28,883 nucleotides of DNA, taken from positions 1 to 28,883 of IMG/VR virus record IMGVR_UViG_3300045303_000104; one strand, 5' to 3'. The translations under genes and the position numbers were made by a program. Shown here piece after piece: positions 1,119 through 28,535 of this stretch. Position 1 is the stretch's first letter; each line of letters begins with the position of its first letter. The DNA comes from a virus. The notes below the pieces were generated by a model. That model ran no database searches, had not been told where the DNA came from, and saw only the letters and a list, made by a program, of their open reading frames with translations.

Positions 1119-4100
1119 ATGGCCAAGGTATCGCCAGCGCATAACGTCTTTGAAGGCGAATTCTCTCCACTAGCCGAAGGCAGAACCGACATTGAGCGCT
1201 ACGGGCGCGCAATGCGGTATATGTCCAACATGATCCCGTGTCGCACGGGGCCAGCCATCGGCCGGTCAGGCACGTATTACGAAGTGCGCTGTATGGACGT
1301 GACGAAGCCGTCCAAGATACTGCCATTTGAGTACAACGAAGAGGAAACGCTAGGGCTTGAATTCGGGCATTTCAAGCTGCGCTTTCTGTACGAGTACAAT
1401 GGCGTGGCCGCGCATCGCGAAGTGGCTGTCACGGTTATCAGTGCCGTAGCGCCGTTCACGTACACGGCTGTTGGCCATGATGCAGTCATTGGCGAGAGTG
1501 TCGTATTCTCAGGCTTTCCCGGCGCATATAACGTCAATGGCGTAATCGCCACGATCACGAACGTTGCCGGCGACGTGATAACCACGGACTACACAGCCAA
1601 CGTAGGGCCGGGCATTTCCGGCAGCCCTGTTATGGCGGTGGTCTATGAGGTCGTGACGCCTTACCATCGTGACGACGTGAAGAACCTTCGTATCGTACAA
1701 GAGCTAAACCTTTGCCATTTGTTCTGTACCAAGTCGGATGGCAGTGGCGACTATCAGATGTACGAGCTATTGCGCCGAGACACGTTCTACTGGACAATCC
1801 TACCTATGGCTCTGCAAGACGGGCCATTCATGGACATAAACACGACCAACACAAACCTGATCCCGGTAGGGACGGGTATGTGGATACCCAACATGACAGC
1901 CGCGACCGTGCCGACTGGCGCGGCAGCCGCGAGCACCGAAGTTGCCGGGCATGAGGCATGGCGAGCCTTCGATGGCGACATAGATACGTATTGGGAAGCC
2001 AACAACGCGCAAGAGGGTTGGCTAGAGTACGCGTTTGAGACAGGCTTTGCTAACCAATTGCTGGTGTTTACAGGCGCAACGTCAGGCGCTCAGACGATCA
2101 GCACATCTTCGCAACAAGCTGGCTCCGAAGGCTGGCGGGCTTCTGATCGCGACTTCCAAGAGGATTGGCGGTCTAGCGGGGCAGTTCCGCAGGAATGGCG
2201 CATAGACTTTGGATCAGCGCAGACCGTGCGCGAGTATACGATACGCGCCAGCACGATCAAGGAAGAATTTGCGCCACGTACTTGGACGCTGGACGGTTCA
2301 AATACAGGCACAGGTGGGCCATGGACAAACGTTGACTCGCGTACTAACCACTTGTGGAACAGCGGTCAGAAGAAACAATTCACTGTGCAGTCACCGGCAT
2401 CGTTCCGGTACTATCGGATCAATGTGACCGCAGTCAACCGGCAACCTGTCACGACCATCATACCAGCTGTAGGTGTGAAAGGCACGCCCGGCTTTGTGCC
2501 GCGTCACACCGTGACGACAAAGACGCCCAACTTCGCGGGCTTCGCCGAAGTGCAGATGAGCTACGGCAGTGGTCAACCGCGTATCGTAGACGGCTACACG
2601 ATCTATCTTGGCCGTTATAACAAGGGCAAGGACGTAATCGAGCACGCGCCCAAGACGTGGTACTTTGAAGGCTATGACGGCACAGACTGGCAATTACTGG
2701 ACAGCCAGCAAGACGTAACGACGTGGGGCCTGTATCGGTCGGACTACTTCCCGATCTTGAATGACGAGCCCTACAAAAAATATCGCATACGTATAAAGAC
2801 GTGCGTTGCGGCCGGCGACGTTAACCCACGCATTGGCCGGCTGGTCATGTCGTCGCCAGATGCACCACCGATCACGCTGCGCGCCACGAGCAAGGTGGGG
2901 ATCAACAGTAATCAAGGCTTTCTAGCGACTGACGTTGGCCGGCAGATACGCGTGCGTGACGCCGATAACATGTGGCGTTGGGCTTTCATCGCTTCTGTCG
3001 TCTCAGCTGTCAGGGTCACGCTGAACCTGATCAGCAATGACCCGCTTGTACTGGAGAAGCGAGTTTCGCTATGGCGGCTTGGCCTGTGGTCCGACACCAC
3101 CGGATGGCCGATCTGTGGCACCTTGCATGAGGACAGGCTGTTTGTCGGCGGTGCGAGCGGCTTCCCCGACACGTTTGTGGGCTCTGTGATTGGCCGGCAT
3201 AACATATTCCGGCAGATCAGCCCGGTTGACGTGGTGACAGACATTCACGCGATTGTCTCCCGCTGCAACAGCAAGCAAATGTCGCGTATCACGTGGATGA
3301 AATCGGCCGAGGAAGCACTGCGCATCGGCACCGGCAAGGCAGAGTGGATACTGTCGGCACCAGTTGACGAGGCGCTAAGCGCCCGCAACGCCCGAATTCG
3401 ACAGACCACGAAGCGCGGCAGCGACATGCAAGAGCCGGCGATCATAGATAACGATGTAGTATTCGTGCAGAAGAACCAACGCGCTCTCTACGCACTGGCT
3501 TACGCACAAGGCCAGTCAGGCGTGGCAGCATCGTACAAGTCAGCGCTGGTTTCCAAGCTCGGCAGCCATCTAATGTCGCCGCCCGTCGTTCAGGTCGTGT
3601 ACCAGCAAGAGCCGCATGGGCTGATTTGGGGCCGGCGATCTGACGGTTCCATCGTTGCCATGAGCTACAGCAACGATGACGACATATTCGGCGGGCATAG
3701 GCACAATTTTGGCGGCTCTGTGTACGACCTATGTGTCATATACAGCCCCACGGACAGGCAAGATAGCCTATGGGCGGTGGTCAAACGTGTAATTGGTGGC
3801 GTTGATCAGTACTACATTGAGCACCTTTACAGATTTTGGGATTTCGGCCTTACACTGAACGCCAACGCGACGTTCATGGACAGTGCTCTGCGCTACTATG
3901 GAACCACCCCGACCGACAAGGTGTATGGTTTGCGCCATTTGAACGGTCAGTATGTCAGTGTGCTAGCTGATGGGGTGGTTTATGCCAACATGGGGCCAGT
4001 GACCAACGGCATGTTGCAGCTGCAAAACTCAGCGCTCAACATAGTTGTGGGCCTGCCATACGTCATGGAAGGCGAAATCATCGCACCGGAAGCCGGGGCC

Positions 4101-4409
4101 GAAGATGGAACGGCGCAAGGTAAGTCAAAACGTCCGCACAGCGCTGTTCTACGGCTGTGGGAGAGCGCGCGGGGCGAGGTTGGCCGTTGGAACGAAGATC
4201 AGAACGTACTTGAGTGGACGCCTATCGAGTACAACGACCCGCAAACGGCTCTACTCCCGGAAACCACGCTGAAAACGTGTTTGACAAAGGTTATGTCGCT
4301 TCCAGCTGGCTACGGCACGCTTGGGACAGTCAGATTTAGGCAGACAGAGCCGTTGCCGTTCAACGTGGTGGGTGTATATCCACAAACGTACGTCGAAGAC
4401 GACAGATGA
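1119..4409 (+). CDS. Tail nozzle (T7 gp12 / tail tubular protein B-like) with inserted discoidin-like domains
   Basis: At 1096 residues it is about 300 longer than T7 gp12 (794). The N-terminus (SPAHNVFEGEFSPLAEGRTDIERYGRA, MIPCRTGPAIGRSG) and the later segment with LHEDRLFVGGASGFPDTFVGS are family hallmarks. The extra length lies roughly at residues 270-580 and reads as discoidin (F5/8 type C) sequence, a beta-sandwich fold that often binds carbohydrate. Visible pieces are FDGDIDTYW (284-292), GWLEYAF (300-306), QEWRIDFG (358-365), TWTLDGSN (near 389), VDGYTIYLG (490) and TWYFEGYDG (near 514). The order suggests one discoidin domain inserted inside another. The start directly follows the adaptor stop, and the TGA overlaps the next ATG. 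The nozzle role is from family knowledge; glycan binding is inference. Confidence 0.87.
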   Translation: MAKVSPAHNVFEGEFSPLAEGRTDIERYGRAMRYMSNMIPCRTGPAIGRSGTYYEVRCMDVTKPSKILPFEYNEEETLGLEFGHFKLRFLYEYNGVAAHREVAVTVISAVAPFTYTAVGHDAVIGESVVFSGFPGAYNVNGVIATITNVAGDVITTDYTANVGPGISGSPVMAVVYEVVTPYHRDDVKNLRIVQELNLCHLFCTKSDGSGDYQMYELLRRDTFYWTILPMALQDGPFMDINTTNTNLIPVGTGMWIPNMTAATVPTGAAAASTEVAGHEAWRAFDGDIDTYWEANNAQEGWLEYAFETGFANQLLVFTGATSGAQTISTSSQQAGSEGWRASDRDFQEDWRSSGAVPQEWRIDFGSAQTVREYTIRASTIKEEFAPRTWTLDGSNTGTGGPWTNVDSRTNHLWNSGQKKQFTVQSPASFRYYRINVTAVNRQPVTTIIPAVGVKGTPGFVPRHTVTTKTPNFAGFAEVQMSYGSGQPRIVDGYTIYLGRYNKGKDVIEHAPKTWYFEGYDGTDWQLLDSQQDVTTWGLYRSDYFPILNDEPYKKYRIRIKTCVAAGDVNPRIGRLVMSSPDAPPITLRATSKVGINSNQGFLATDVGRQIRVRDADNMWRWAFIASVVSAVRVTLNLISNDPLVLEKRVSLWRLGLWSDTTGWPICGTLHEDRLFVGGASGFPDTFVGSVIGRHNIFRQISPVDVVTDIHAIVSRCNSKQMSRITWMKSAEEALRIGTGKAEWILSAPVDEALSARNARIRQTTKRGSDMQEPAIIDNDVVFVQKNQRALYALAYAQGQSGVAASYKSALVSKLGSHLMSPPVVQVVYQQEPHGLIWGRRSDGSIVAMSYSNDDDIFGGHRHNFGGSVYDLCVIYSPTDRQDSLWAVVKRVIGGVDQYYIEHLYRFWDFGLTLNANATFMDSALRYYGTTPTDKVYGLRHLNGQYVSVLADGVVYANMGPVTNGMLQLQNSALNIVVGLPYVMEGEIIAPEAGAEDGTAQGKSKRPHSAVLRLWESARGEVGRWNEDQNVLEWTPIEYNDPQTALLPETTLKTCLTKVMSLPAGYGTLGTVRFRQTEPLPFNVVGVYPQTYVEDDR

Positions 4410-4838: not shown

Positions 4839-5288
4839 ATGGGCGCGATGTCAGGTGGGCTGAGCATCATTGGCGGGCTTGTTGGGGCCATGGGGGCCAT
4901 GCAACAGGCTGAGGCAGAGGCCAAAGCACACGAATACAACGCGGCTGTGGCAGAGCGTAATCGCGGCACGATCCATGAGCAAACCTATGCAGCCGTGGAC
5001 GACGCGTTGCGAGCACGTTCACGTGAGATAGACAATATCCGGGGCAAGTTTGCCGCGAATGGCATGACGTACACCGGATCAGCCCTTGACGTGATGAGCG
5101 ACACGATACGCGAAGAGGCACTAGGCATTCAGCGCACACAGTATCGTGGCAGGCTTGCTGAAATCGAGCAGATCGACACGAAGAACCTCGAATTGATGGG
5201 CGCGGACGCCGCGCGCAAGGCCGGGACGATCAGCGCAGTTTCCTCGATCCTCAACGGCTTCGCTGGCGCAGTCAGTGCCGCGAGCTAG
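4839..5288 (+). CDS. Internal core / ejection protein (T7 gp14-type)
   Basis: This 149-residue protein starts with a hydrophobic, glycine-rich helix (SIIGGLVGAMGAMQQAEAEAKAHEYNAAVAERN) and continues as a long alpha-helical region with A-N-G-x-x-x-x-G-S-A-L-D-V, a phrase common to phage virion core proteins that form the first part of the ejected channel. Size, helix content and position before the larger ejection proteins match T7 gp14. GAGAGG at 4822-4827 serves as the ribosome site with rather long spacing. It probably inserts in the outer membrane during DNA entry, which is inferred from the T7 model. Confidence 0.78.
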   Translation: MGAMSGGLSIIGGLVGAMGAMQQAEAEAKAHEYNAAVAERNRGTIHEQTYAAVDDALRARSREIDNIRGKFAANGMTYTGSALDVMSDTIREEALGIQRTQYRGRLAEIEQIDTKNLELMGADAARKAGTISAVSSILNGFAGAVSAAS

Positions 5289-18342: not shown

Positions 18343-18724
18343 TGTTGACCACCCACGGCTTTTTGTTCCACGGTACGAATGACATTATCTCGTCCATCGT
18401 TGGAAACACGCCTTCGAACTTGATTGCCCTGTCGTCTATCATGACAAACGCGGCTGGCTTCTCAGTCGGGAATTCTATCTCGGCTATCACGTCCCGCTCA
18501 AGGCCCCAACGTTCTAGCGCGTCCCGCATCGCCCATATGCCGTTGAACATATGCGAGCGCGACGAGAATATGCACACGTTGAACGTCTTCACGGCTTCAC
18601 GCAGAAACTCGATAGCGCCGGGAACGGGTGGGTCGCTTACCTTGTCCGCTCCCTGCCAACCGCTTGTCACGTAGCTGTGCAGCACGCCATCGAAATCTAC
18701 GCACAAAGTCAGTTTCTTATTCAT
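18329..18724 (-). CDS. HAD-superfamily phosphatase, phage replication-module type
   Basis: The 131-residue protein shows all HAD motifs: DFDGV (nucleophile D10 and acid/base D12), the serine of motif II in FSSRS (54-55), a motif III lysine in TEKPAA (K89) and motif IV IDDRA (D97, D98). This is the size of small phage HAD phosphatases such as 5' nucleotide or polynucleotide 3'-phosphatases; the substrate cannot be told. It overlaps the primase stop by a few bases, so it is co-translated with replication genes, in line with a role in nucleotide or DNA-end processing. Confidence 0.82.
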   Translation of the reverse strand: MNKKLTLCVDFDGVLHSYVTSGWQGADKVSDPPVPGAIEFLREAVKTFNVCIFSSRSHMFNGIWAMRDALERWGLERDVIAEIEFPTEKPAAFVMIDDRAIKFEGVFPTMDEIMSFVPWNKKPWVVNNAVK

Positions 18725-20813
18725 CTGTGTCGTCCTCCCCTTCGGGTCGCGGTGGTAGTTCCATACGTGCGGGGTTATATGGCAAGCTTGTATCGACTTC
18801 GATCAGAGAGAACTGATGCATCTTGCTTTCCGTGTCTAGCACCATGGCAAAGCGCTGCCCGTCAGGCGCGACATACGGGTGTGTGATGTTACCACGCTGG
18901 AATAGGATGCGCAGACCTTCGCCTAGCGACTTGACGGACCTGTCGTTGAACGGCGAATTGTCCGCTATGACCAAAGCCGCCTGAGATACTGCCAACGTGT
19001 TTCTGTGATGGGCTAGCATATGGTCGCCAATCATTGTCACGTATGACGCGTTGGTCGAAGCCATGGCGTTCTTAATGTCGATCTTCATGGGTGTTGGGTA
19101 GCCCTGTCCATTGGACGCGCGTAGGATGCGCCGTTCCCACCACGTGAGCATCCCTTTCGGGCCGTAGCTGCACTTGCTGATACGTGTTGAGAAGTAGTTG
19201 TCATTGCGGCCTTGTATGGCTATGTCCGTTGGCGTCTGTGGCAACACGTTGGCTGCAATTCGCGCGCTCGATACGATTGCCCCCGCGCCCACACTTAGGT
19301 CCGCGCTGTCAGGATCAAGGTCCTTGCGCTGTAACAGGTTCTTGCCCGTGTGGTGGCTGACCAGAACAGAAAGATTGAGGCTGTACGCAATCGCGTTTAG
19401 ATGCACCATCGCTTCGCTCATTTGCGCGTTGTCGTTCTCATTTATGCCGCGTAGCATCTTGCGCAACGGATCAAAGAACATGGCCTTCACGTTGGGGTGT
19501 TTTTCCTTGTAGTTGGACAGGTAGCGCACCGTGTCCTCGGGTACGCGCATCTTCCTGTCAACCAGTTCGACCAATGTCAGCTGTTTGTTATTCTGGCTCA
19601 GTACATGGAAGTGCTGCGATACGTGGCCCCAATCCATGCCATATGCCGTACACGTTACCTCTGCCCTGCCCGATATGATAGCCCGGCTGTCCTCCGGATT
19701 GTACAGCATCGTGTCGAAGGGCGACGGTATGGCGTGCGGCCCAAACATCTTGCCGTATGCGGCATGAGCGGCGAGTGCGATCAACCACGCTGATTTGCCT
19801 ACACCGTTCGGGCCAACGAAGACTGTCACTTCGCCCCGTATCAGCAACGGATGCACCAGCCAATCGGTCAGGGGGATGCGTCCCGGCTCTAGAAGCGTGT
19901 CCTCTTCGTCCTCCCGATAGACCAGCGGGGTGGCTGCCACGGTGGTAGCCGGCGTGAACGTCACGCCTTCCATGATCTTGTCAGGGTCGCGCGAGCCTGT
20001 TTCACCAATTGCGTACGCTTCCGCGTTTTCGACCTTGCGCTTTAGCTCGTCAGGCGCCCATGGGGGCATACAGCGCGGATTGAAATGCTCCAGCATCAAT
20101 AGGGTGGTTGTCGGCTCGCTTAGCCCGTAGTCGCGTACGCCCATGCAAGCGACGTTATACGTATGGGTATCTCCACCCTGCCCTTCGATTGCAGGCTCAA
20201 CGCGTTTGAGGTATTCGATATACAAAGGTATAGCTTTTTCACTGTCGGCATGGCCATTGAGCCGTTCCTTACGCTCTCTGACAGGCTTGAGTAGCGACAA
20301 GAGAGCTTGCGGTAATTCGGCAATTGCTTGGTCATGGTATAGCTCATACGAGCCGCCGCTTTCGATTGCGAACGAGCCCGGCGCTATGCCGTAGCCATTC
20401 TCGCATCGTACGTCCACGCTCGGCACTAGCCCTTGCATGTTCGCGAACGTCATCCCCCTAGGCAATCGGAAGTACGCTTGCAAACCACCTGATGCTGTCC
20501 TGACGACAAGCGTGTCCAGCGTCCCGCCAATGGCTATGTAGTTGGCCAGTGCGGAATGCCCGAATTTCTGGTCCCATTTGGTATCTATGTCGAAGATGAT
20601 CAGCCCGTTGCCGCCGCTGCCGCACAATACGCCAATGTTTAGCTCGTGGTGCGGGTTGACCGGATCGCGCCATAGCTGTGTGATCTTCTCAGGGTCGTCA
20701 GTCGCTAGCTCCGGGAAACTAACCGTTGGCCGCTTGCCGCCGAATGGTAGCGGGAAGATTTTAATGCCGCGTCTTGCGAACGCCAGCGCTTCGGCCAATA
20801 CAGCCATGGCCAT
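18717..20813 (-). CDS. Primase-polymerase / AAA helicase fusion (PrimPol plus RepA-like ATPase)
   Basis: Residues of about 5-170 match the bifunctional primase-polymerase domain: GIKIFPLPFGGKRP, the metal-binding FDIDTK (D75, D77), RTASGGLQAYF (108-115) and SVDVRCENGYGIAPGS. Residues of about 310-560 form a RecA/RepA-like ATPase with Walker A GPNGVGKS (334-341, K340), Walker B AMFFDPL (D448) and SVLVSHHTGKN. Such fusions prime and unwind phage DNA. The histidine usually found in the SGG-x-H motif is glutamine here (Q112), encoded CAA. A second ATG two codons downstream is an equally possible start. The upstream small gene ends three bases before. Confidence 0.85.
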   Translation of the reverse strand: MAMAVLAEALAFARRGIKIFPLPFGGKRPTVSFPELATDDPEKITQLWRDPVNPHHELNIGVLCGSGGNGLIIFDIDTKWDQKFGHSALANYIAIGGTLDTLVVRTASGGLQAYFRLPRGMTFANMQGLVPSVDVRCENGYGIAPGSFAIESGGSYELYHDQAIAELPQALLSLLKPVRERKERLNGHADSEKAIPLYIEYLKRVEPAIEGQGGDTHTYNVACMGVRDYGLSEPTTTLLMLEHFNPRCMPPWAPDELKRKVENAEAYAIGETGSRDPDKIMEGVTFTPATTVAATPLVYREDEEDTLLEPGRIPLTDWLVHPLLIRGEVTVFVGPNGVGKSAWLIALAAHAAYGKMFGPHAIPSPFDTMLYNPEDSRAIISGRAEVTCTAYGMDWGHVSQHFHVLSQNNKQLTLVELVDRKMRVPEDTVRYLSNYKEKHPNVKAMFFDPLRKMLRGINENDNAQMSEAMVHLNAIAYSLNLSVLVSHHTGKNLLQRKDLDPDSADLSVGAGAIVSSARIAANVLPQTPTDIAIQGRNDNYFSTRISKCSYGPKGMLTWWERRILRASNGQGYPTPMKIDIKNAMASTNASYVTMIGDHMLAHHRNTLAVSQAALVIADNSPFNDRSVKSLGEGLRILFQRGNITHPYVAPDGQRFAMVLDTESKMHQFSLIEVDTSLPYNPARMELPPRPEGEDDTDE

Positions 20814-20816
20814 TAC

Positions 20817-21059
20817 TCAGGTCAGCTGGATAAGTCGGTACGATCCTACGGCACGCCCAAGGACAAGCCTATAGCTTGATCCTTTGCGTAGCTCGCTTTT
20901 GTTTACCCTGCCGTTGTACGGCCCCATGCCGTTGCCGCCGACCTCTGCCAGTCCTAAATACTGCAAGATGGTCGCGGCTGGCACGTCGATACCAAGCCCG
21001 ACATGCAGCATGTACTTGACAATGGCGTCACACGTTGGCCGGTTATCCCTAGCCGTCAT
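20817..21059 (-). CDS. Small hypothetical protein between polymerase and primase
   Basis: I use the ATG at 21059, which overlaps the polymerase stop as ATGA; a longer frame from 21140 would overlap the polymerase by 85 bases. The 80-residue product has a helical first half (CDAIVKYMLHVGLGIDVPAATILQYLGL) and a basic, beta-like second half (VNKSELRKGSSYRLVLGRAV), which could be a small DNA-binding fold of winged-helix type. That reading is only an impression. Its place between polymerase and primase suggests a replication accessory role. Confidence 0.65.
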   Translation of the reverse strand: MTARDNRPTCDAIVKYMLHVGLGIDVPAATILQYLGLAEVGGNGMGPYNGRVNKSELRKGSSYRLVLGRAVGSYRLIQLT

Positions 21060-23290
21060 TTCGTGTAGCGGTCGCCCGACCATACCGAAGCCGCCAGCGG
21101 AAAGTCCTGAGCCCACGAGGGAAGTTGTGTCAGAAGCCATTTGTAGTACCTCTCATGGTCTTCGGGACGGTCATACCAACGGGTCTTGATCAGCGACAGC
21201 AACTCGTCATGCACTGTCAGAACAACTTCGTACCCGGCCTTTTCGGCTCTTACTATGGCTGGCGCTAAAAAGTCTCTGGCGGTTCCCTGAACGATATTTT
21301 CGCACTGGTAGCCACCGTATAACGCCTTTTTAACCCACTGTTTCGTATCGCTTAACCCGTAGAAACGAACGCCCCGGCGCGAATGCGGGACGATCTTGTA
21401 ACCCAACTTGAGTAACACGTCAAGCTCGAAAGGAAACAGACTATCAACGTCAACATATTGAATTCCATCCCAAATCCGTTCTTCTACTACGGTCGCTATA
21501 TGCGGCTGTGCATACATCAGAACGCGACCGGAAGGCAGCCGGCAATACAAGTAGTTGCCATCGCAGAAATAGGTAGCCTTGCCACTATACACAGGCACTT
21601 CCAAGCCCGGTCGATCTACAGCGTTGATTGCCGCGTCCTGTAAATCCCACCATGCCGCTACTTGCAAAGGATTGGTCTTACGCCAGCCAAGTACGGCGAT
21701 CTTGATCGCTGTCCAAATATGCTCTTCCAGCCCAAACGTGTCGCGTGCGTGTGGAAACCTCTTGGCCACGCCATCCCATATCTCGGCTGACGTTGTATTT
21801 GCAATGGCGGCTGCCAGCTTCGGTATCTTGATCAGGTAGTTGTTGGCAGCTGTCAGAAACGCACCCACACCACCCTGAAATCCGCATTGTAATTCAATCA
21901 CTTTGCCAATCTGTCTGAGCGGCTTCGTGATCTGCTCAACTTCCAGATTGAAAGCGCGGGCGTAGGCCAGCTTGTATAGATCGGGGCCAATGCCAGCATC
22001 AAAATCACGAAACGCTTGTAGCTTCCACGTCTCATTAGCCAGCCATGCATTGATCCGGCCTTCTATGTTTGCGAAGTCTCCGCCGACAAACATATACGTG
22101 TCGTCAGGCACGGCTATCGTTGACCGCAAGCCCTTTGCCATCCACGCCAACGTTGACAGCCCACCTTGGCTGTCGCCGTTGGCCAGCTTCGGCGGGCCTA
22201 GTAGCTCGATCATGTCGTACACTTCATTGATCGGTCGCGTGGCGTCTCGCGTGATCCCAACTACCCACGCAACAAGCGCGGCTTCATCTTCGTCAGATAC
22301 ACGGACATAGTTTTGGGGCTGCACCACCCTGCCGGCCCAACGCATTGTCTGTTGCGCGCCGCCGAACTGTAGCCAGCCGCGCCCGCGTGCGTCAGCCCCT
22401 ACGGAGCCCTTGATCACTTTGTATTTGGCTGTGCTCGTCTTGCCGGTGGTCGAACGCACTTCAATTGTGTCGGCCGCATCATCGTCGCCGGCAGCCTCGC
22501 ATAAGTCCAAGAGCCGCTGCCGCTCGCCTTTCTTCAAACTCGTTGCTGCTATGTTTCGGCTCTGTAGCCAAGCCGTGATCCGCGCAATCTGCGTGGCCTT
22601 TGTGACCTGTCCACCTGTCAGTCGGGAAATCTCTTCGTTGGCCTTGAGCTTGGCGTAATCGACAAGTTCAATCGCACGCCCCACAAATACCATGTCGTGC
22701 GGTATGCCGCGATCATTGATGCGCTGATCAATGTGCCATAGTGCAAGCTCGTCAGGCGTAAGCTCCGGGAGTACCATGTTGGCGTGACGTTCAACGTGTA
22801 CGTCTTGGTCACAATAGTCTTCCTGCCGTAGCATGTCGGCCGGGTCTTCATGCCATGTTCCGTTCTTTCGTGGCTTGCTCAGCTTGAGCATGAGGCTATG
22901 CCCGCTCATGTCTTTCTTCGGCAAGCCTAGAACCTCTGCCAGCTGTTCAAGGCTGCCCGGCAGATTGCACGCGTACGCCCGTATCATCAGATCAGAGCAT
23001 TGTTCGATCTGTAAGACAGGCAACCACGGACAATCTCGCACTAGCGTGTCGTTCCAAATGACCCTTTCAAAAGGGCCATGTGCAACAACGCGTTTGCCAG
23101 CTAGTACGTGGTCAATAAGTTTTCTAGGTGGTGTCTCGCGATACGGTCGCCAGCGTTCTATTGGGCTGTACCCAACACAGTACGACGCGACCGTGACCTG
23201 TGTGCTTGGGTCAGCCGCGTAGCGATACGCGCCAACCTTTTTCAGATTGGCGCGTGATCGCGTCTCAAAGTCTAGAACTAGGTCGTCCAC
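21056..23290 (-). CDS. Phage-type family A DNA polymerase with 3'-5' exonuclease
   Basis: The 744-residue protein opens with an exonuclease domain: LDFET (D7, E9), AHGPFERVIW and YCDQDVHVE (exo III region, near 158-166). The polymerase motifs follow: motif A GGDFANIEGR (catalytic D405), motif B PLRQIGKVIELQCGFQGG (K463) and motif C TVHDE (D695, E696). This is the compact polymerase of DUF2815/DUF2800-type phage replication cassettes and lacks the 5'-nuclease of bacterial Pol I. The motif B position usually tyrosine is phenylalanine (F471). It starts one base from the end of the upstream small gene and overlaps the next one by ATGA. Confidence 0.92.
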   Translation of the reverse strand: MDDLVLDFETRSRANLKKVGAYRYAADPSTQVTVASYCVGYSPIERWRPYRETPPRKLIDHVLAGKRVVAHGPFERVIWNDTLVRDCPWLPVLQIEQCSDLMIRAYACNLPGSLEQLAEVLGLPKKDMSGHSLMLKLSKPRKNGTWHEDPADMLRQEDYCDQDVHVERHANMVLPELTPDELALWHIDQRINDRGIPHDMVFVGRAIELVDYAKLKANEEISRLTGGQVTKATQIARITAWLQSRNIAATSLKKGERQRLLDLCEAAGDDDAADTIEVRSTTGKTSTAKYKVIKGSVGADARGRGWLQFGGAQQTMRWAGRVVQPQNYVRVSDEDEAALVAWVVGITRDATRPINEVYDMIELLGPPKLANGDSQGGLSTLAWMAKGLRSTIAVPDDTYMFVGGDFANIEGRINAWLANETWKLQAFRDFDAGIGPDLYKLAYARAFNLEVEQITKPLRQIGKVIELQCGFQGGVGAFLTAANNYLIKIPKLAAAIANTTSAEIWDGVAKRFPHARDTFGLEEHIWTAIKIAVLGWRKTNPLQVAAWWDLQDAAINAVDRPGLEVPVYSGKATYFCDGNYLYCRLPSGRVLMYAQPHIATVVEERIWDGIQYVDVDSLFPFELDVLLKLGYKIVPHSRRGVRFYGLSDTKQWVKKALYGGYQCENIVQGTARDFLAPAIVRAEKAGYEVVLTVHDELLSLIKTRWYDRPEDHERYYKWLLTQLPSWAQDFPLAASVWSGDRYTK

Positions 23291-23674
23291 CTAGCCTGCC
23301 GGCTTATCAGCAATGCGTTTGGCAGATGCTTGCGCTTCGGGCGAATTGCTGTGCTTGATACGCTCGTGGTCGGCTGTCTCGGCTTCGGGCTCTTTGTACA
23401 AGAACGCGCGCACTGCACAGTCCTTGCTCTCCAAGAGCTTGCGGAGCATGACCGTCCGCTCCGGATTGCTCGGCAGCACGACACACAGGCTTTCAGCAAG
23501 GTCGCCGAAAGGCCGGCTGATTTCTTTCAGATCGTCGCGCAAATGCCCATACGCAAAGAATTGCAACATTCTGTCTCGTGGCATATGTGTCTTCCTCTTT
23601 CTCTTAGGGTGGCTGGCCAGCATCCTGTCCCAACCTTCGCGTTCGGCCAGCGTTCTAACGCTTGGTTTTTCCAT
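23291..23674 (-). CDS. Acb2/Tad1-hairpin-like protein, possible anti-CBASS sponge
   Basis: The 127-residue product has a basic N-terminus (residues 1-35), a core at about 36-90 and an acidic tail. The core FFAYGHLRDDL, RPFGDLAESL, LPSNPERTVMLRKLLESK, DCAVRAFL belongs to a family widespread in phages whose pattern (F-x-Y start, lA helix, P-x-x-E-R, LrkLle, avrA) resembles the Acb2/Tad1 hairpin family. Acb2 proteins soak up cyclic nucleotides made by CBASS defence. The relation is judged by eye, and function is inference. Two starts are possible: ATG 23674 with AGGA in CACACAGGAAAC, or ATG 23584 with GAGGAAG six bases upstream, giving 97 residues and a family-like length. It sits between the SSB and polymerase genes. 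Confidence 0.6.
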   Translation of the reverse strand: MEKPSVRTLAEREGWDRMLASHPKRKRKTHMPRDRMLQFFAYGHLRDDLKEISRPFGDLAESLCVVLPSNPERTVMLRKLLESKDCAVRAFLYKEPEAETADHERIKHSNSPEAQASAKRIADKPAG

Positions 23675-23695
23675 AAACGTGTTTCCTGTGTGGGC

Positions 23696-23731
23696 GGCGG
23701 GGCTGGCGCATTGGCCTACACCAGCCCCGCC
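23696..23731. promoter_or_regulatory. Perfect GC-rich hairpin upstream of the Acb2-like gene
   Basis: GGCGGGGCTGG (23696-23706) pairs perfectly with CCAGCCCCGCC (23721-23731) around a 14-base loop. On the minus-strand transcript it follows the single-strand-binding gene by 38 bases and ends a few bases before the CACACAGGAAAC ribosome site of the next gene. No U tract follows. It could be an attenuator, an RNA-processing or mRNA-stability element. Confidence 0.6.
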
Positions 23732-23769
23732 TTAACCGGGTCGCGGAAACTCCCGCCGCGCTCAGCCGG

Positions 23770-24636
23770 TTATCTCAGTGACGACAGGTCGTATGGATCA
23801 GCCGCCACGGTGGTGTGCTGCATCCCGCTGTAGAGCGGATTGGGCGGGGGCGGCGGCACGAAACCACCCGGAGACGGAGCCATCGGAATGCCCGGCTGTG
23901 GGGGCCTGTAGGGCAGCCCACCCGGCACTGGCGGCGCAAGGCTTGCCAGCGCACCCGGATTGATTATCGGGGGCTTGACGTTGGCGTGAGCGAAGACTTG
24001 CCTAGGGTCCACGCCACCACCGGACAGGTTCGTGTCGTCACCGATTATCATCACAGCCTGTAGTCCGAAGCTGACGCCTTTCTTCGGCTGTGGCGGGCTC
24101 TTACCATAGCCATACGCGTTGACCACGAGAATAGCCCATACGCCGGGATACACTCGTGACCTGTCGGTGATTGGGTTCTTCTGGTAATCCACGATGCTCG
24201 GCTGGAATTTGCTCGTGTGGTTCACATAAAACAAGCCGGGCGTGAAGCCTTCAAACTTCATGCTCTTGTGAGCACAGTCGTGGAACGGGTTTTCCAAGCC
24301 GCTATAGCCGGGAGGCGTCAGATGCGGATTATAGTGGTCGGAAAACATTTCGTTACAGATACGGTAATACTCGGCGTAGTAGATCGCCCAGTCAGTGAAC
24401 GGGCTGTACAGAGCACATACGCTGTACTTGGGCGTGCCTGCCGGATTGTTTGACGGGGCCTTCGGATCATACAGCGTGTCGCAAAAGGCCAGCCGAACGG
24501 GACCAGACGAGATCAGCCGGTTTTCACCGGGCAGCATCACTGTCGGGTTGTTCTGGCATATCTCGCGTACCCACGGGTCGCCAACCTTGCTGTTGGTCAT
24601 GAAGGTCGCGCCGTCCATAAAAGTTGAGCCTGCCAT
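23770..24636 (-). CDS. DUF2815 single-stranded DNA-binding protein with proline-rich tail
   Basis: The 288-residue protein contains the DUF2815 pattern: GPVRLAFCDTLYDPK, KYSVCALYSP, the long region to VYPGVWAILVVNAYGYG and KKGVSFGLQAVMIIGDD, then GGG-x-DP. The family is regarded as an OB-fold, T7 gp2.5-like single-strand-binding protein of phage replication modules. After about residue 220 the chain becomes a disordered proline-rich tail (VPGGLPYRPPQPGIPM, FVPPPPPNP) and does not end in the usual acidic tip. GGA five bases before the ATG at 24636 supports that start; further methionines at residues 7 and 13 are possible. The nuclease gene lies just upstream. Confidence 0.82.
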   Translation of the reverse strand: MAGSTFMDGATFMTNSKVGDPWVREICQNNPTVMLPGENRLISSGPVRLAFCDTLYDPKAPSNNPAGTPKYSVCALYSPFTDWAIYYAEYYRICNEMFSDHYNPHLTPPGYSGLENPFHDCAHKSMKFEGFTPGLFYVNHTSKFQPSIVDYQKNPITDRSRVYPGVWAILVVNAYGYGKSPPQPKKGVSFGLQAVMIIGDDTNLSGGGVDPRQVFAHANVKPPIINPGALASLAPPVPGGLPYRPPQPGIPMAPSPGGFVPPPPPNPLYSGMQHTTVAADPYDLSSLR

Positions 24637-24661
24637 GGTATCCTACTTTCTGGTTTATGAG

Positions 24662-25951
24662 CTATGGTTTCTGAGCTATAGGTACATAGTCGATCAGTGC
24701 TGCTACGTTGATTTCTGGTCGTCTATCCTCCCTGTCTACGAGCACCATATTGCCACTCGTGTCTTTGATTGTCAACGTGGCGATAGCCTCATTGACTTTC
24801 TCAACCTCTTTCTTCGAGCCTGTCCTGCCAACGCGTTCGTACACAGCTTGACGCGCCATTTCCTTCGTGTCGGTTATCGTCAGCAAACCCTCTTTCAGAA
24901 AAGCCGTTGCTGGTATGCCCGTGATTGCTTGCAAGTGGCCGGCTATGACACGTGGTTCACCGTTCCATTTGGACCGGGCCTGCGCATAAACGAGTTTCTT
25001 GTTTGGTATCGCCACGCCTCTACGTGCTAGAGCAATGGCCTGTTTGAACACAGCTTCAAGCCATTCCTCTACCATGTCTCGCATCGACAATATGTCAGCA
25101 ATGCGTTCTACGGATAACTCCGCCACGACGGGCAGTCCAGTCTGTTGCAGCGTGGATATATTGTTATATGTCGGTAGCACAGAGCGCATACGGTGCTGCT
25201 CCGCTTCGGGACATGCCGAAATGGCGGGACACCACCGGCAATATCTCCCCGGAACAATCGAAGGAATGCGCTCTTTGGTCTTAGCAATAGCGAAATTAAC
25301 TTCGCCAATAAACTGGTCAAGCCTATCGTCGCGGCACGTCCACTCTCGCATTGCCCCGTCACGGTGGAAACCTCTTGGCTGGAGGATCATCATACGGTAC
25401 ACGGTCTTACCCGAATTACACAAGCCCTGTCGGCGTAGCTCCTGCCGGCTACCTACGGCGTAGAACATCAGTTGGCTGTTCTCGGTCACGTCAACCGCTA
25501 CGCCGGAACCGTGCTTGAAATCGCATACGATCATCATGTCAAGATTGGGGACATAGATCGTCACGTCGGACGTTCCGCCGCAATCGTCGCCATCGGTGGT
25601 CGGGAACACGAAGCGACATTCAAGGTACACGGTCAGATCAGGTTGGTACGCTTCGATTAGGTCTGATACGAAGTCCAACGCAGCCTGAACGCTGTCCAAA
25701 CGTATTTCCTCTGTGTCGTGCCTGTGCGTCCAATTCAGCCCTGCCATGATCTTAGCTTCATGGGCTGACGCGTAGCTGTTCAACAACGCGTACTCCAGAA
25801 GCTCGTGAGCCTCTTCGCCGTCCAGAGCATACGTTGACGCTATGCCGGCAGGCATCCCGGCCGCACGCTGTATCGAACCGTAGCAGTGCATCCACCTGTG
25901 AGAGCTAGATGCGCTGAATAGGCTGTGCGTACGGCCGGAATGATCAGTCAT
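24662..25951 (-). CDS. DUF2800 Fe-S PD-(D/E)XK nuclease (Cas4/RecB-like)
   Basis: The 429-residue protein has the opening SASSSHRWMHC (C23), common to Cas4/AddB-like nucleases, then the nuclease core: E111, GGTSDVTIY (D129), CDFKHGSG (D144, K146) and NSQLMFYAV (Q160, Y164). Three cysteines follow in YCRWCPAISACP (C238, C241, C247), which with C23 can hold a 4Fe-4S cluster. The C-terminal 180 residues are helical and unassigned. DUF2800 genes are usual partners of DUF2815 and family A polymerase genes in phages, with a presumed role in processing DNA ends for recombination. The start overlaps the end of the upstream small gene by ATGA. Confidence 0.84.
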   Translation of the reverse strand: MTDHSGRTHSLFSASSSHRWMHCYGSIQRAAGMPAGIASTYALDGEEAHELLEYALLNSYASAHEAKIMAGLNWTHRHDTEEIRLDSVQAALDFVSDLIEAYQPDLTVYLECRFVFPTTDGDDCGGTSDVTIYVPNLDMMIVCDFKHGSGVAVDVTENSQLMFYAVGSRQELRRQGLCNSGKTVYRMMILQPRGFHRDGAMREWTCRDDRLDQFIGEVNFAIAKTKERIPSIVPGRYCRWCPAISACPEAEQHRMRSVLPTYNNISTLQQTGLPVVAELSVERIADILSMRDMVEEWLEAVFKQAIALARRGVAIPNKKLVYAQARSKWNGEPRVIAGHLQAITGIPATAFLKEGLLTITDTKEMARQAVYERVGRTGSKKEVEKVNEAIATLTIKDTSGNMVLVDREDRRPEINVAALIDYVPIAQKP

Positions 25952-26211
25952 GATACGGGCTCGCCCAAGCTCTGGAAGGACGGCATGACAGGCGTGCTGA
26001 CGCCAAACGAATTGAGCACAGCCGCCGCCATGTCACAGTAATATTCTTTCTCGCTGGCCGGCAAGTCCGGCCAGTTCTTGTCTCTGTAGAGCATCGGGTG
26101 ACGGTGTGCCGGATCATCGTCGGCAACGCGTTTCTTGCGTAGGCCGAACAACGCCACACCGCCCGTGAGTATGTCGTTTACGTCGGCCGATATGGTAATC
26201 GGGTTTTTCAT
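25948..26211 (-). CDS. Small hypothetical protein upstream of the DUF2800 nuclease
   Basis: I choose the ATG at 26211, two bases after the stop of the upstream gene; the longer frame from 26262 overlaps that gene by 49 bases. The 87-residue product contains ITISADVNDILTGGVALFGLRKKR, a histidine- and aspartate-containing patch (ADDDPAHRHPML) and a helix (SEKEYYCDMAAAVLNSFGV). No family is recognised. Translational coupling to the nuclease by ATGA suggests they act together. Confidence 0.68.
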   Translation of the reverse strand: MKNPITISADVNDILTGGVALFGLRKKRVADDDPAHRHPMLYRDKNWPDLPASEKEYYCDMAAAVLNSFGVSTPVMPSFQSLGEPVS

Positions 26212-26213
26212 GG

Positions 26214-26594
26214 CTAGCCGGGCGGCACGTACGCGTGGTTCCCGAAAGCCTGCTCCAGCCATGCCAGCTGTTCCGGGTTGGCATCCTGTACCCGGCTCAG
26301 CTGTAACTGGTTCAGCACTTTTTTGACGCCAGCAACCTGATGACCGGCACGTGCATACGCGTCCATCAGGCGCAACACGTTGTCCATCTGAGGGTTGCCA
26401 GAGCCGGCTGGCGGCGCGGCTGGCGCGGGCGGGGGCGGCATGGCAGCGGGAGCCGGGGGCATCGCCGGCATCGTGGCAGCGGGCCGCGCGGGCATCCCTG
26501 TGGGAGCACCGCCTGTCCCCGCGTGGCCCATGGCAAGAGCCATCATCGCTTGCGCGACGTTGGGGTCATCGGTCCCAAACATGAAACGAGGCAT
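26214..26594 (-). CDS. Hypothetical protein with proline/alanine-rich linker
   Basis: The ATG at 26594 has AGGAG about ten bases upstream and is favoured over a GTG at 26627 that would add eleven residues. The 126-residue product has an N-terminal helix (DDPNVAQAMMALAMGH), a low-complexity linker of P, A, M and G (about residues 30-65, with runs such as AAMPPPPAPAAPPAG) and a C-terminal helical domain (MDNVLRLMDAYARAGHQVAG, VLNQLQLSRV). This two-part layout with a flexible linker suggests an adaptor between other proteins. The function is not known. Confidence 0.72.
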   Translation of the reverse strand: MPRFMFGTDDPNVAQAMMALAMGHAGTGGAPTGMPARPAATMPAMPPAPAAMPPPPAPAAPPAGSGNPQMDNVLRLMDAYARAGHQVAGVKKVLNQLQLSRVQDANPEQLAWLEQAFGNHAYVPPG

Positions 26595-26656
26595 TCTGTT
26601 ATCACTCCTGTTTTCTGGTTTCTGCACCTACTCGGTAACAAAGATTTTGAGCCTTG

Positions 26657-28027
26657 TCAAATGGCATGTGCGGGCATCGGTTCCCCTTCTATATCAGCTA
26701 TTGCACGCGTTTTTTGTATGACTAGTTCATTGACACGTTCGTCAAAGGTGTTGGCTAACGTTACAAATCTGACAAAGCACGGCATTGTCTGGCCGATACG
26801 GTGAATACGCTTTACAGCTTGCGCATTGCCGGCTGGTGTCCAATCGCTTTCGAGTACGTCAAGCCGGCGCGCAGCAAACAAGTCTGTGCCAAGCCCGGCT
26901 GACTTCGTGTTGCCAAGAAAGACAGTGACGGTCGGGTCGTCCTGAAACTGCCTTACAGCCCTGTCAGCCTGTCGGTCGCTGACTGTGCCGTTGACCAGCA
27001 CGCAGCTGACGCCATGCTTGCGCAGGAAGTTATAGATAAAGTCAAGCGCAGCGATATGAATGCCCATGACCACGTGTTTCTCGCCACCCGTGATCCGTAG
27101 GTCGTCCAGCAGCATGTGCGCGTAGGGGGCTGCCTTAGCCTCGCCTAGCAAACGCCTTAGCGTCATAATGTGCTGGCTTTCGAGGAAGCTCAGCCCACCT
27201 GATCGGACAGCCTGAACGATGGCATGGCTAAGCGTAGGATACAGCTTTAACAGGTCTATGATCGGCTTCGTGTCGCCGTCCACTATGACCGGGTTCATGC
27301 TCAGTTGGGGCAGCTGGAAGCCCACGTCGGAGAGCGTACGCCGGACACGGCAGCCGTCGATCAGTGCCATCAGATCAACGTAAGCCTCTGGCTTGACCGT
27401 CTGCCGGCTACCATACGCGCTTACGTCGCTGTAGAAGAATTGCTTTATGAACGATGGCGCGGCTAGGGTGGTTGCCCGGCACATCTTGAGAAACGTAAAT
27501 ATGTCGAGCGGGTCGTTGGCCATGGGGGTCCCGCTCATATGCCAAACGTGTTCTGCCCAGTTGATCAGCCCGCCTGTACCGTCGTACTTTTCGCCTAGGA
27601 TGGCGCGCGTACGTCGGGCGTCTTGGTTCTTGACGTAGTGCGCTTCGTCCATGGCCACGAAATCAATGGGCTCACCGCTTGCGTGGATAGAGCCAGCCCA
27701 TTTGGTCGCTTGCTCGTAGCTCGTGACGATTATGTGGTATCGGCCTTTCTGCCACGCGATGAAATCGGCCACGGATCGGCCTTCCGTCACACGGTAGCCA
27801 CGCGTTGCCCATAGGTTGAACTGGAACAGCGTATTGCGGCGGAGCTTGGCCGGCACGATGGCTATACCACGTGTGGCCTTGATCTTGTCCACTGCGCGTA
27901 TCATCTGCGCTGTCTTGCCAAGGCCCATGGCATCGTGCAAGCCACATCGCTCGCGGCTTGCCATGAAGTCCACACCAATCTGTTGGTACGGATAGATTGG
28001 CTTGAATACGCCGGGCTTAATTTGCAT
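26657..28027 (-). CDS. SNF2-family helicase/translocase
   Basis: The 456-residue protein has the full set of SNF2-type superfamily 2 motifs: YPYQQIGVDFM, motif I DAMGLGKTAQ (32-41, K38), motif Ia IVPAKLRRN, motif II MDEAH (D127, E128), motif III SGTPMAND (165-172), then in the second lobe FLGNTKSAGLGTDLFAA (motif V) and QAVKRIHRIGQ (motif VI). Phage members of this compact type occur in replication modules and are thought to remodel or migrate DNA structures. The RuvC-like resolvase gene ends one base upstream, which fits a branch-processing pair. Confidence 0.9.
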   Translation of the reverse strand: MQIKPGVFKPIYPYQQIGVDFMASRERCGLHDAMGLGKTAQMIRAVDKIKATRGIAIVPAKLRRNTLFQFNLWATRGYRVTEGRSVADFIAWQKGRYHIIVTSYEQATKWAGSIHASGEPIDFVAMDEAHYVKNQDARRTRAILGEKYDGTGGLINWAEHVWHMSGTPMANDPLDIFTFLKMCRATTLAAPSFIKQFFYSDVSAYGSRQTVKPEAYVDLMALIDGCRVRRTLSDVGFQLPQLSMNPVIVDGDTKPIIDLLKLYPTLSHAIVQAVRSGGLSFLESQHIMTLRRLLGEAKAAPYAHMLLDDLRITGGEKHVVMGIHIAALDFIYNFLRKHGVSCVLVNGTVSDRQADRAVRQFQDDPTVTVFLGNTKSAGLGTDLFAARRLDVLESDWTPAGNAQAVKRIHRIGQTMPCFVRFVTLANTFDERVNELVIQKTRAIADIEGEPMPAHAI

Positions 28028-28028
28028 G

Positions 28029-28535
28029 TCACTTGCCTACTAGGAACGTTTCACCGTAGTACCCTAGCATGGCCGCTTCTGCCCTGTCAAGTAGCCTGCC
28101 GCCTTTCGGTCCACGCCACAAGCCAGTATGCGTAGGCAACAGGTCGTCCGCACGTTCTAAAATCGCTTGGTCGTCGGTCGCCTCTTTCTTCCCCGGAACA
28201 CGTAAAAGACGTTTCCACGTTGCCGCGGGTATTTCCTCAATCGGTAGCCTGACCGATATGCAAGCCATGCGAACAAGCCCAACGCACACGCCCATAATAA
28301 ACATGCCACGTTGTCCCGGCCTTTCCCATATCTGTTCGATGACCACCCTATCAACGCCTTTGAGTACCGCCATTTCAAAGTACGTGATCAGTGCTACATC
28401 GTCGATACGTGCGCGCTTCGTTTTTCCTACAGTAACCTTGTAAGACGGCATGTCTTCGATTTGAAGTATGCCGCGCTCATGGTCATAATAGGCCAACGCG
28501 CCGCCAAGCCCGCAGTCCACGCCTATGGTGGTCAT
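28029..28535 (-). CDS. RuvC-like Holliday junction resolvase
   Basis: At 168 residues it has the size of RuvC. The RNase H-fold acidic residues are placed as expected: D7 in GVDCGLGGALA, E67 in VVIEQIW, and D150 with E153 in DRAEAAMLGYYG, where the family usually shows D-H-A-x-D-A. The segment IPAATWKRLLRVPGKKEAT is also family-like. It should cut four-way junctions formed in replication and recombination before packaging. The start overlaps the upstream gene by ATGA and the stop lies next to the helicase start. Confidence 0.87.
   Translation of the reverse strand: MTTIGVDCGLGGALAYYDHERGILQIEDMPSYKVTVGKTKRARIDDVALITYFEMAVLKGVDRVVIEQIWERPGQRGMFIMGVCVGLVRMACISVRLPIEEIPAATWKRLLRVPGKKEATDDQAILERADDLLPTHTGLWRGPKGGRLLDRAEAAMLGYYGETFLVGK

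Follow-up and report, generated by a model that had tools for sequence, protein, structure and literature searches.

The nozzle gene and its setting

The window, meaning the whole stretch of DNA analysed here, is the record of an uncultured virus and comprises 28,883 bases. On its plus strand lies a long open reading frame whose coordinates, together with four discoidin half-motif blocks inside it, are as the initial annotation gave them (Table 1). The encoded protein matches PHROG 376 'tail protein' at E 8.4e-120 and the solved nozzle of Cobetia phage Carin1 (gp36, 8ck1) at E 4e-35, and T7 gp12 is reached by a profile of related nozzles (91 %, E 1e-6). The window protein has no match to Pfam PF25675 (Phage_nozzle) at E ≤ 1; since the relative L144 matches this family at 1.7e-8, above the cutoff, the miss reflects the reach of the profile. 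Judged by core homology, the protein is a podophage tail nozzle of the T7 gp12/Carin1 type. It has the core sequence and the position in the tail gene order in common with T7 gp12 and Carin1 gp36 but differs from both, which are without a discoidin domain at the second insertion site, and it additionally carries an FCCH-like module at the first. At 1096 aa against the 794 aa of T7 gp12, it is about 300 residues longer, as had been claimed, and its nearest insert-free relatives measure 660-690 aa, or about 750 aa with the extra FCCH-like module.

The gene is flanked upstream by a phrog_394 tail protein (525-1115) and downstream by a phrog_418 internal virion protein (4839-5288). The order adaptor, nozzle, internal virion proteins is present, is alike in Pelagibacter phage HTVC034P, and is syntenic with the 'tail tubular B' genes of Pelagibacter phages. 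Farther along, the minus strand from 18717 to 28535 holds a replication module with primase/polymerase-like, DNA polymerase, Gp2.5-like SSB, exonuclease, helicase and RuvC-like resolvase genes; the open reading frames scanned include no recognised RNA polymerase.

The tail tubular protein B of the HTVC010P type, also from a Pelagibacter phage, is about 30 % identical to the window protein, shares the FCCH-like module at site 1 and has the same neighbour genes (acetyltransferase-like, internal virion protein), but holds just 8 residues at site 2 against 335 in the window. The site-1 module is missing in the 660-690 aa nozzles. In the window protein itself Pfam finds no FCCH match at residues 97-177, and a Trypsin_2 match over residues 101-173 (E 0.098) is regarded as spurious, the same stretch being FCCH-like.

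Table 1. Features of the nozzle gene (residues of the protein; nucleotide positions in the window; A-only denotes relatives that carry domain A without B)
Feature	Residues	Position	Strand	Evidence
Tail nozzle (tail tubular protein B, T7 gp12/Carin1 gp36 type)	1-1096	1119..4409	+	1096 aa; phrog_376, 8ck1, synteny
Insertion site 1, FCCH-like module	97-177	1407..1649	+	Aligned with E1_FCCH (PF16190) matches in HTVC010P-type nozzles
Insertion site 2, whole nested discoidin insert	251-585	1869..2873	+	Length classes at the site across nozzles
Domain A, N-terminal part (FDGDIDTYW..GWLEYAFE)	264-308	1908..2042	+	A-only HMM 55-90; AlphaFold2 pLDDT ~87-94 in most
A-to-B linker	309-315	2043..2063	+	Sole stretch with model pLDDT <50
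Inner discoidin domain B	~316-484	2064..2570	+	PF22633, PF00754; profile matches; missing in A-only relatives
Domain A, C-terminal part (VDGYTIYLG..TWYFEGYDG..KYRIRI)	486-583	2574..2867	+	A-only HMM 79-190, 84.5 bits; 7nsn
Nozzle core after insert		2874..4406	+	phrog_376 610-1094; aligns with T7 gp12 and Carin1

Two discoidin domains at the second insertion site

The inner domain B is matched by Pfam PF22633 (galactose-binding) over residues 348-434 with E 1.9e-10 and 41.6 bits against a cutoff of 27.8, and by PF00754 (F5/8 type C) over residues 327-441 with E 7.8e-5; in relatives the PF00754 match rises above the cutoff. A profile of nine B sequences reaches the discoidins of the GH92 mannosidase 7nsn at E 3.7e-20, a chitosanase CBM32 at E 2.6e-7 and APC10 at E 4e-5, and PHROG 17517 'tail protein' matches the domain at E 8.4e-36. 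By these profile matches, B is identified as a complete F5/8-type-C (discoidin, CBM32-like) domain, which includes a long hairpin ahead of its last strand.

The outer domain A scores weakly in Pfam, and on the whole protein Pfam finds none of it. With B cut out and the halves joined, each of the eight members gives a weak match to F5_F8_type_C (best E 0.003), and against the curated Pfam cutoff both joined and contiguous A stay below it, with best E values of 0.003-0.008. Profile-profile comparison brings the two domains together: joined A matches B at 98 % and E 2.7e-13 in an alignment that runs through the junction, contiguous A matches B at 96.5 % and E 8.9e-10, and the joined-A profile reaches the 7nsn discoidins at E 1.3e-12. 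Additionally, gp52 of Brevibacillus phage Sundance matches A with 45 bits over positions 3-130. On this profile evidence, A is classed as a divergent discoidin homologue and not as a member of the Pfam family.

The best evidence for nesting is comparative, and consists of domain A standing alone and uninterrupted at the same nozzle site in about ten IMG/VR relatives. A scan with nozzles of the window's clade yielded L142, which is 38-39 % identical to the window protein and carries at site 2 a single uninterrupted domain, AYKAFDGDEETYWASNEQQKGILEVTPAVPFAADGYTIHLARDN...YAPSKFAFEGWNGSAWIELDRQ...YSKYRLRV; a scan starting from L142 then gave about ten further A-only nozzles (L142, L174-L183, L195 and L205 in all, or L142, L175-L183, L195 and L205 in another listing). 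These proteins lack B, unlike the window protein, and their domain A contains a loop (RPxIAGTxxSPVxFLGRNITY, about 20-30 residues) ahead of the AFD motif that the clade with both domains, A[B], does not have. No published description of them was found. When they are aligned with the window insert by MAFFT, one large gap opens and removes B. An HMM built from ten contiguous A domains falls on the window insert in order, with model positions 2-29 and 55-90 before B and 79-190 after it, and hhalign matches joined A to contiguous A over almost the full length (99.9 %, E 1.1e-34). From the gap, the HMM order and this last match, B is placed in the turn of A between the strands GWLEYAF and VDGYTIYLG.

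Structure prediction complements this picture. An AlphaFold2 model from 5 sequences reached a pLDDT of 52 and was left out of the evidence; the model used was built from 23 sequences, with A-only relatives included, and gives the window insert a mean pLDDT of 84.2, with values of at least 90 at 158 of 345 residues. Values are mostly 77-96 in B and fall below 50 in the A-to-B linker only. The model supports a discoidin-family beta-sandwich fold for B, and it assigns strands in both parts of A. The N-terminal part has few and short strands, which require partners and so probably pair with the C-terminal part, as strand assignment and homology together suggest. With a pTM of 0.56, the model does not fix how A and B are oriented to each other. 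A Foldseek search with the insert model returns 199 PDB matches at E ≤ 0.001, and the matches listed are proteins with discoidin-type domains, among them the CBM32 of NanJ (TMt 0.77), chitosan-binding modules (0.72-0.78), other CBM32 domains (0.75-0.78), fucolectin, galactose oxidase, sialidase and neuropilin b1b2. The CBM32 matches, which come without their matched ranges, probably belong to B rather than to A.

The presence of a tandem discoidin pair such as neuropilin b1b2 among these matches, and the poor quality of the first model, could be taken to mean that the four half-motifs represent two tandem discoidins or decayed half-domains with no nesting at all. This reading is very improbable and was rejected: B by itself covers a full Pfam domain, the parts flanking B join to a domain that matches contiguous A over its whole length, and conservation in the two A parts is on a par with that of the nozzle core. 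The initial annotation had proposed that a whole discoidin domain lies within a loop of another, and the A-only relatives at the same site, the order of the halves in the HMM and profile comparisons and the confident model all bear this out; the predicted structure and the profile matching of both sub-regions point to two discoidin folds, neither in tandem nor replaced by a non-discoidin insert. B is thus almost certainly nested in A.

The nozzle and the domain family are both known; for the arrangement, the openly licensed PMC literature searched yielded no account, whether of a nozzle with a discoidin domain or of one discoidin inside another. The CBM32 or F5/8-type-C domains of Clostridium perfringens NanJ (2v72), the GH92 mannosidase (7nsn) and a chitosanase (4zxe) have the same fold, with TM 0.75-0.78 across the CBM, and the same sequence motifs, but they are contiguous parts of carbohydrate-active enzymes and are neither nested nor in a phage nozzle. 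Closer in setting, the tailspike of phage LKA1 carries a discoidin-like domain (PMC5701251) and, like PHROG 17517, places a discoidin in a phage tail protein as the window does. The LKA1 domain is single, in a tailspike and with no nesting described (PMC5701251), in contrast to the nested pair in the nozzle here.

Distribution and history of the insert

Across about 120 nozzle reading frames, the length at site 2 falls into distinct classes: 334-356 residues in the A[B] clade to which the window belongs, 177-181 in the A-only group, 126-127 in two nozzles with a truncated A, and 0-23 in nearly all others. For one nozzle, L194, two alignments disagree, giving 79 and 16 residues. Residues ~251-585 of the window protein are missing in all aligned nozzles of cultured phages. 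The architecture of the window protein is not due to chance, since about a dozen independent contigs encode it in proteins that are 53-66 % identical. Single-protein scans of viral and genome contigs gave no match, and an alignment of 13 sequences was too diverse for patterns.

A core tree was computed with both insertion sites removed (663 columns, 69 rows; a quick method with SH-aLRT support). A fully supported branch (100) separates all discoidin-bearing nozzles, together with one empty nozzle (L186), from the 46 other empty nozzles. Support is 100 for the A[B] clade, 98 for the A-only clade and 100 for the truncated-A pair. Three label changes suffice on this tree, which is the minimum, and the simplest reading has A gained once and B inserted once, with a single truncation and a single loss besides. 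Because A occurs in all three inner clades and B in one, A was likely gained before B; this order rests on parsimony, with the branching among the three inner clades left open. L186 (4947-7571), within the discoidin-bearing clade, has an empty site 2 and a tip region longer by about 90 residues; it appears to have lost A and gained sequence elsewhere.

A separate question, which concerns the origin of B and not its nesting, is whether A was duplicated in its own gene and the copy inserted into the original, as against B coming from another protein. The folds of A and B are homologous, and an AU test does not reject A and B as one clade (p 0.17). In the domain tree, however, B groups with discoidins of other phages and not with A (93/88), and the best single matches differ, with Erwinia phage RisingSun gp193 for B (76.5 bits) and Sundance gp52 for A (45 bits). 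Such a duplication is unlikely.

Judged by the T7 type alone, the modularity of nozzles would be underestimated. The family accepts modules at several sites, corresponding to residues 97-177, 609-651, 867-879 and 927-936 of the window protein, with lengths of 7-300 residues at site 1, 36-266 at the tip, and up to 120 and up to 160 at two C-terminal sites. In L063 (4001-6883) and L209, about 200 residues apparently lie inside the FCCH-like module of site 1, forming a second nested nozzle insertion. In L088, L105, L172 and L240, some 130-145 residues resembling a CBM4/9-type jelly roll stand in place of that module, and Pfam assigns no convincing family to this stretch.

Probable tail-tip position and possible function

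In T7, the gp12 nozzle is a hexameric tube that gates DNA, and its tip departs from the propeller via a loop of blade 3 that Y146, Y281 and W297 hold in place (PMC6702177). The insert maps between T7 Y146 and Y281/W297 at an identity of about 18-19 %; the T7 residue of the site is placed at 156-184 by MAFFT and at ~200-220 by hhalign, and both placements are inside the tip interval. On this alignment, the insert probably sits at the nozzle tip. Nozzle (TTPB) proteins of other phages are reported to act in host adsorption or host range (PMC7241545, PMC10904470).

The tip interval, the CBM32-like fold and the published host contact by other nozzles make glycan binding and host contact plausible for A[B], by analogy of fold, position and precedent. 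A role as a glycan-binding adhesin is accordingly somewhat better than an even prospect, and discoidin domains may also have phospholipid or peptide as ligand, or no ligand at all. In the general discoidin fold, the turn into which B went would be at the pole away from the usual ligand loops, so that the binding face of A could stay free. Mean pairwise identity is 0.54 in B, 0.67 in the A parts and 0.66 in the core; the lower conservation of B is compatible with an exposed, adapting domain, without amounting to proof of adaptation.

The scenario considered likely as a whole is as follows. A podophage nozzle would have gained the CBM32-like domain A between the beta-propeller and the nozzle tip, and later, in one lineage, B would have inserted into the A turn between GWLEYAF and VDGYTIYLG. 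If the protein is a hexamer as in T7, six A[B] units would place twelve discoidin domains round the tail tip. These would most likely bind cell-surface polysaccharide and, beside the separate tail fibre, help the tail to dock or to take up its orientation for ejecting the DNA.

Alternatively, the nesting is real but structural, with A[B] bracing the nozzle tip or docking the fibre or neighbouring subunits and having no host ligand. Other nozzles of the family do carry different modules, such as FCCH-like modules and tip expansions, at several sites, and some of these may serve packing or decoration. However, the insert is dispensable in the family, most nozzles being without it and L186 appearing to have lost it; B varies faster than the core; and the closest solved matches are carbohydrate-binding modules. 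A purely structural role is therefore unlikely, and polysaccharide binding at the tip is preferred. Taken further, the nozzle might be a modular receptor-binding organelle in which A serves as a platform for a faster-evolving lectin B, and a ring of twelve lectins aids the fibres in host choice or grip before DNA release; this extension is tentative, at slightly less than even chances.

Nozzles are viewed mainly as DNA gates. The arrangement described here indicates that the nozzle family takes up carbohydrate-binding-type domains near what is probably the tip, even one within another, with intermediate states still present in nature. The stages of domain-into-domain insertion are thereby documented with unusual completeness, in an essential virion protein, and whether nozzles take part in host recognition becomes directly testable.
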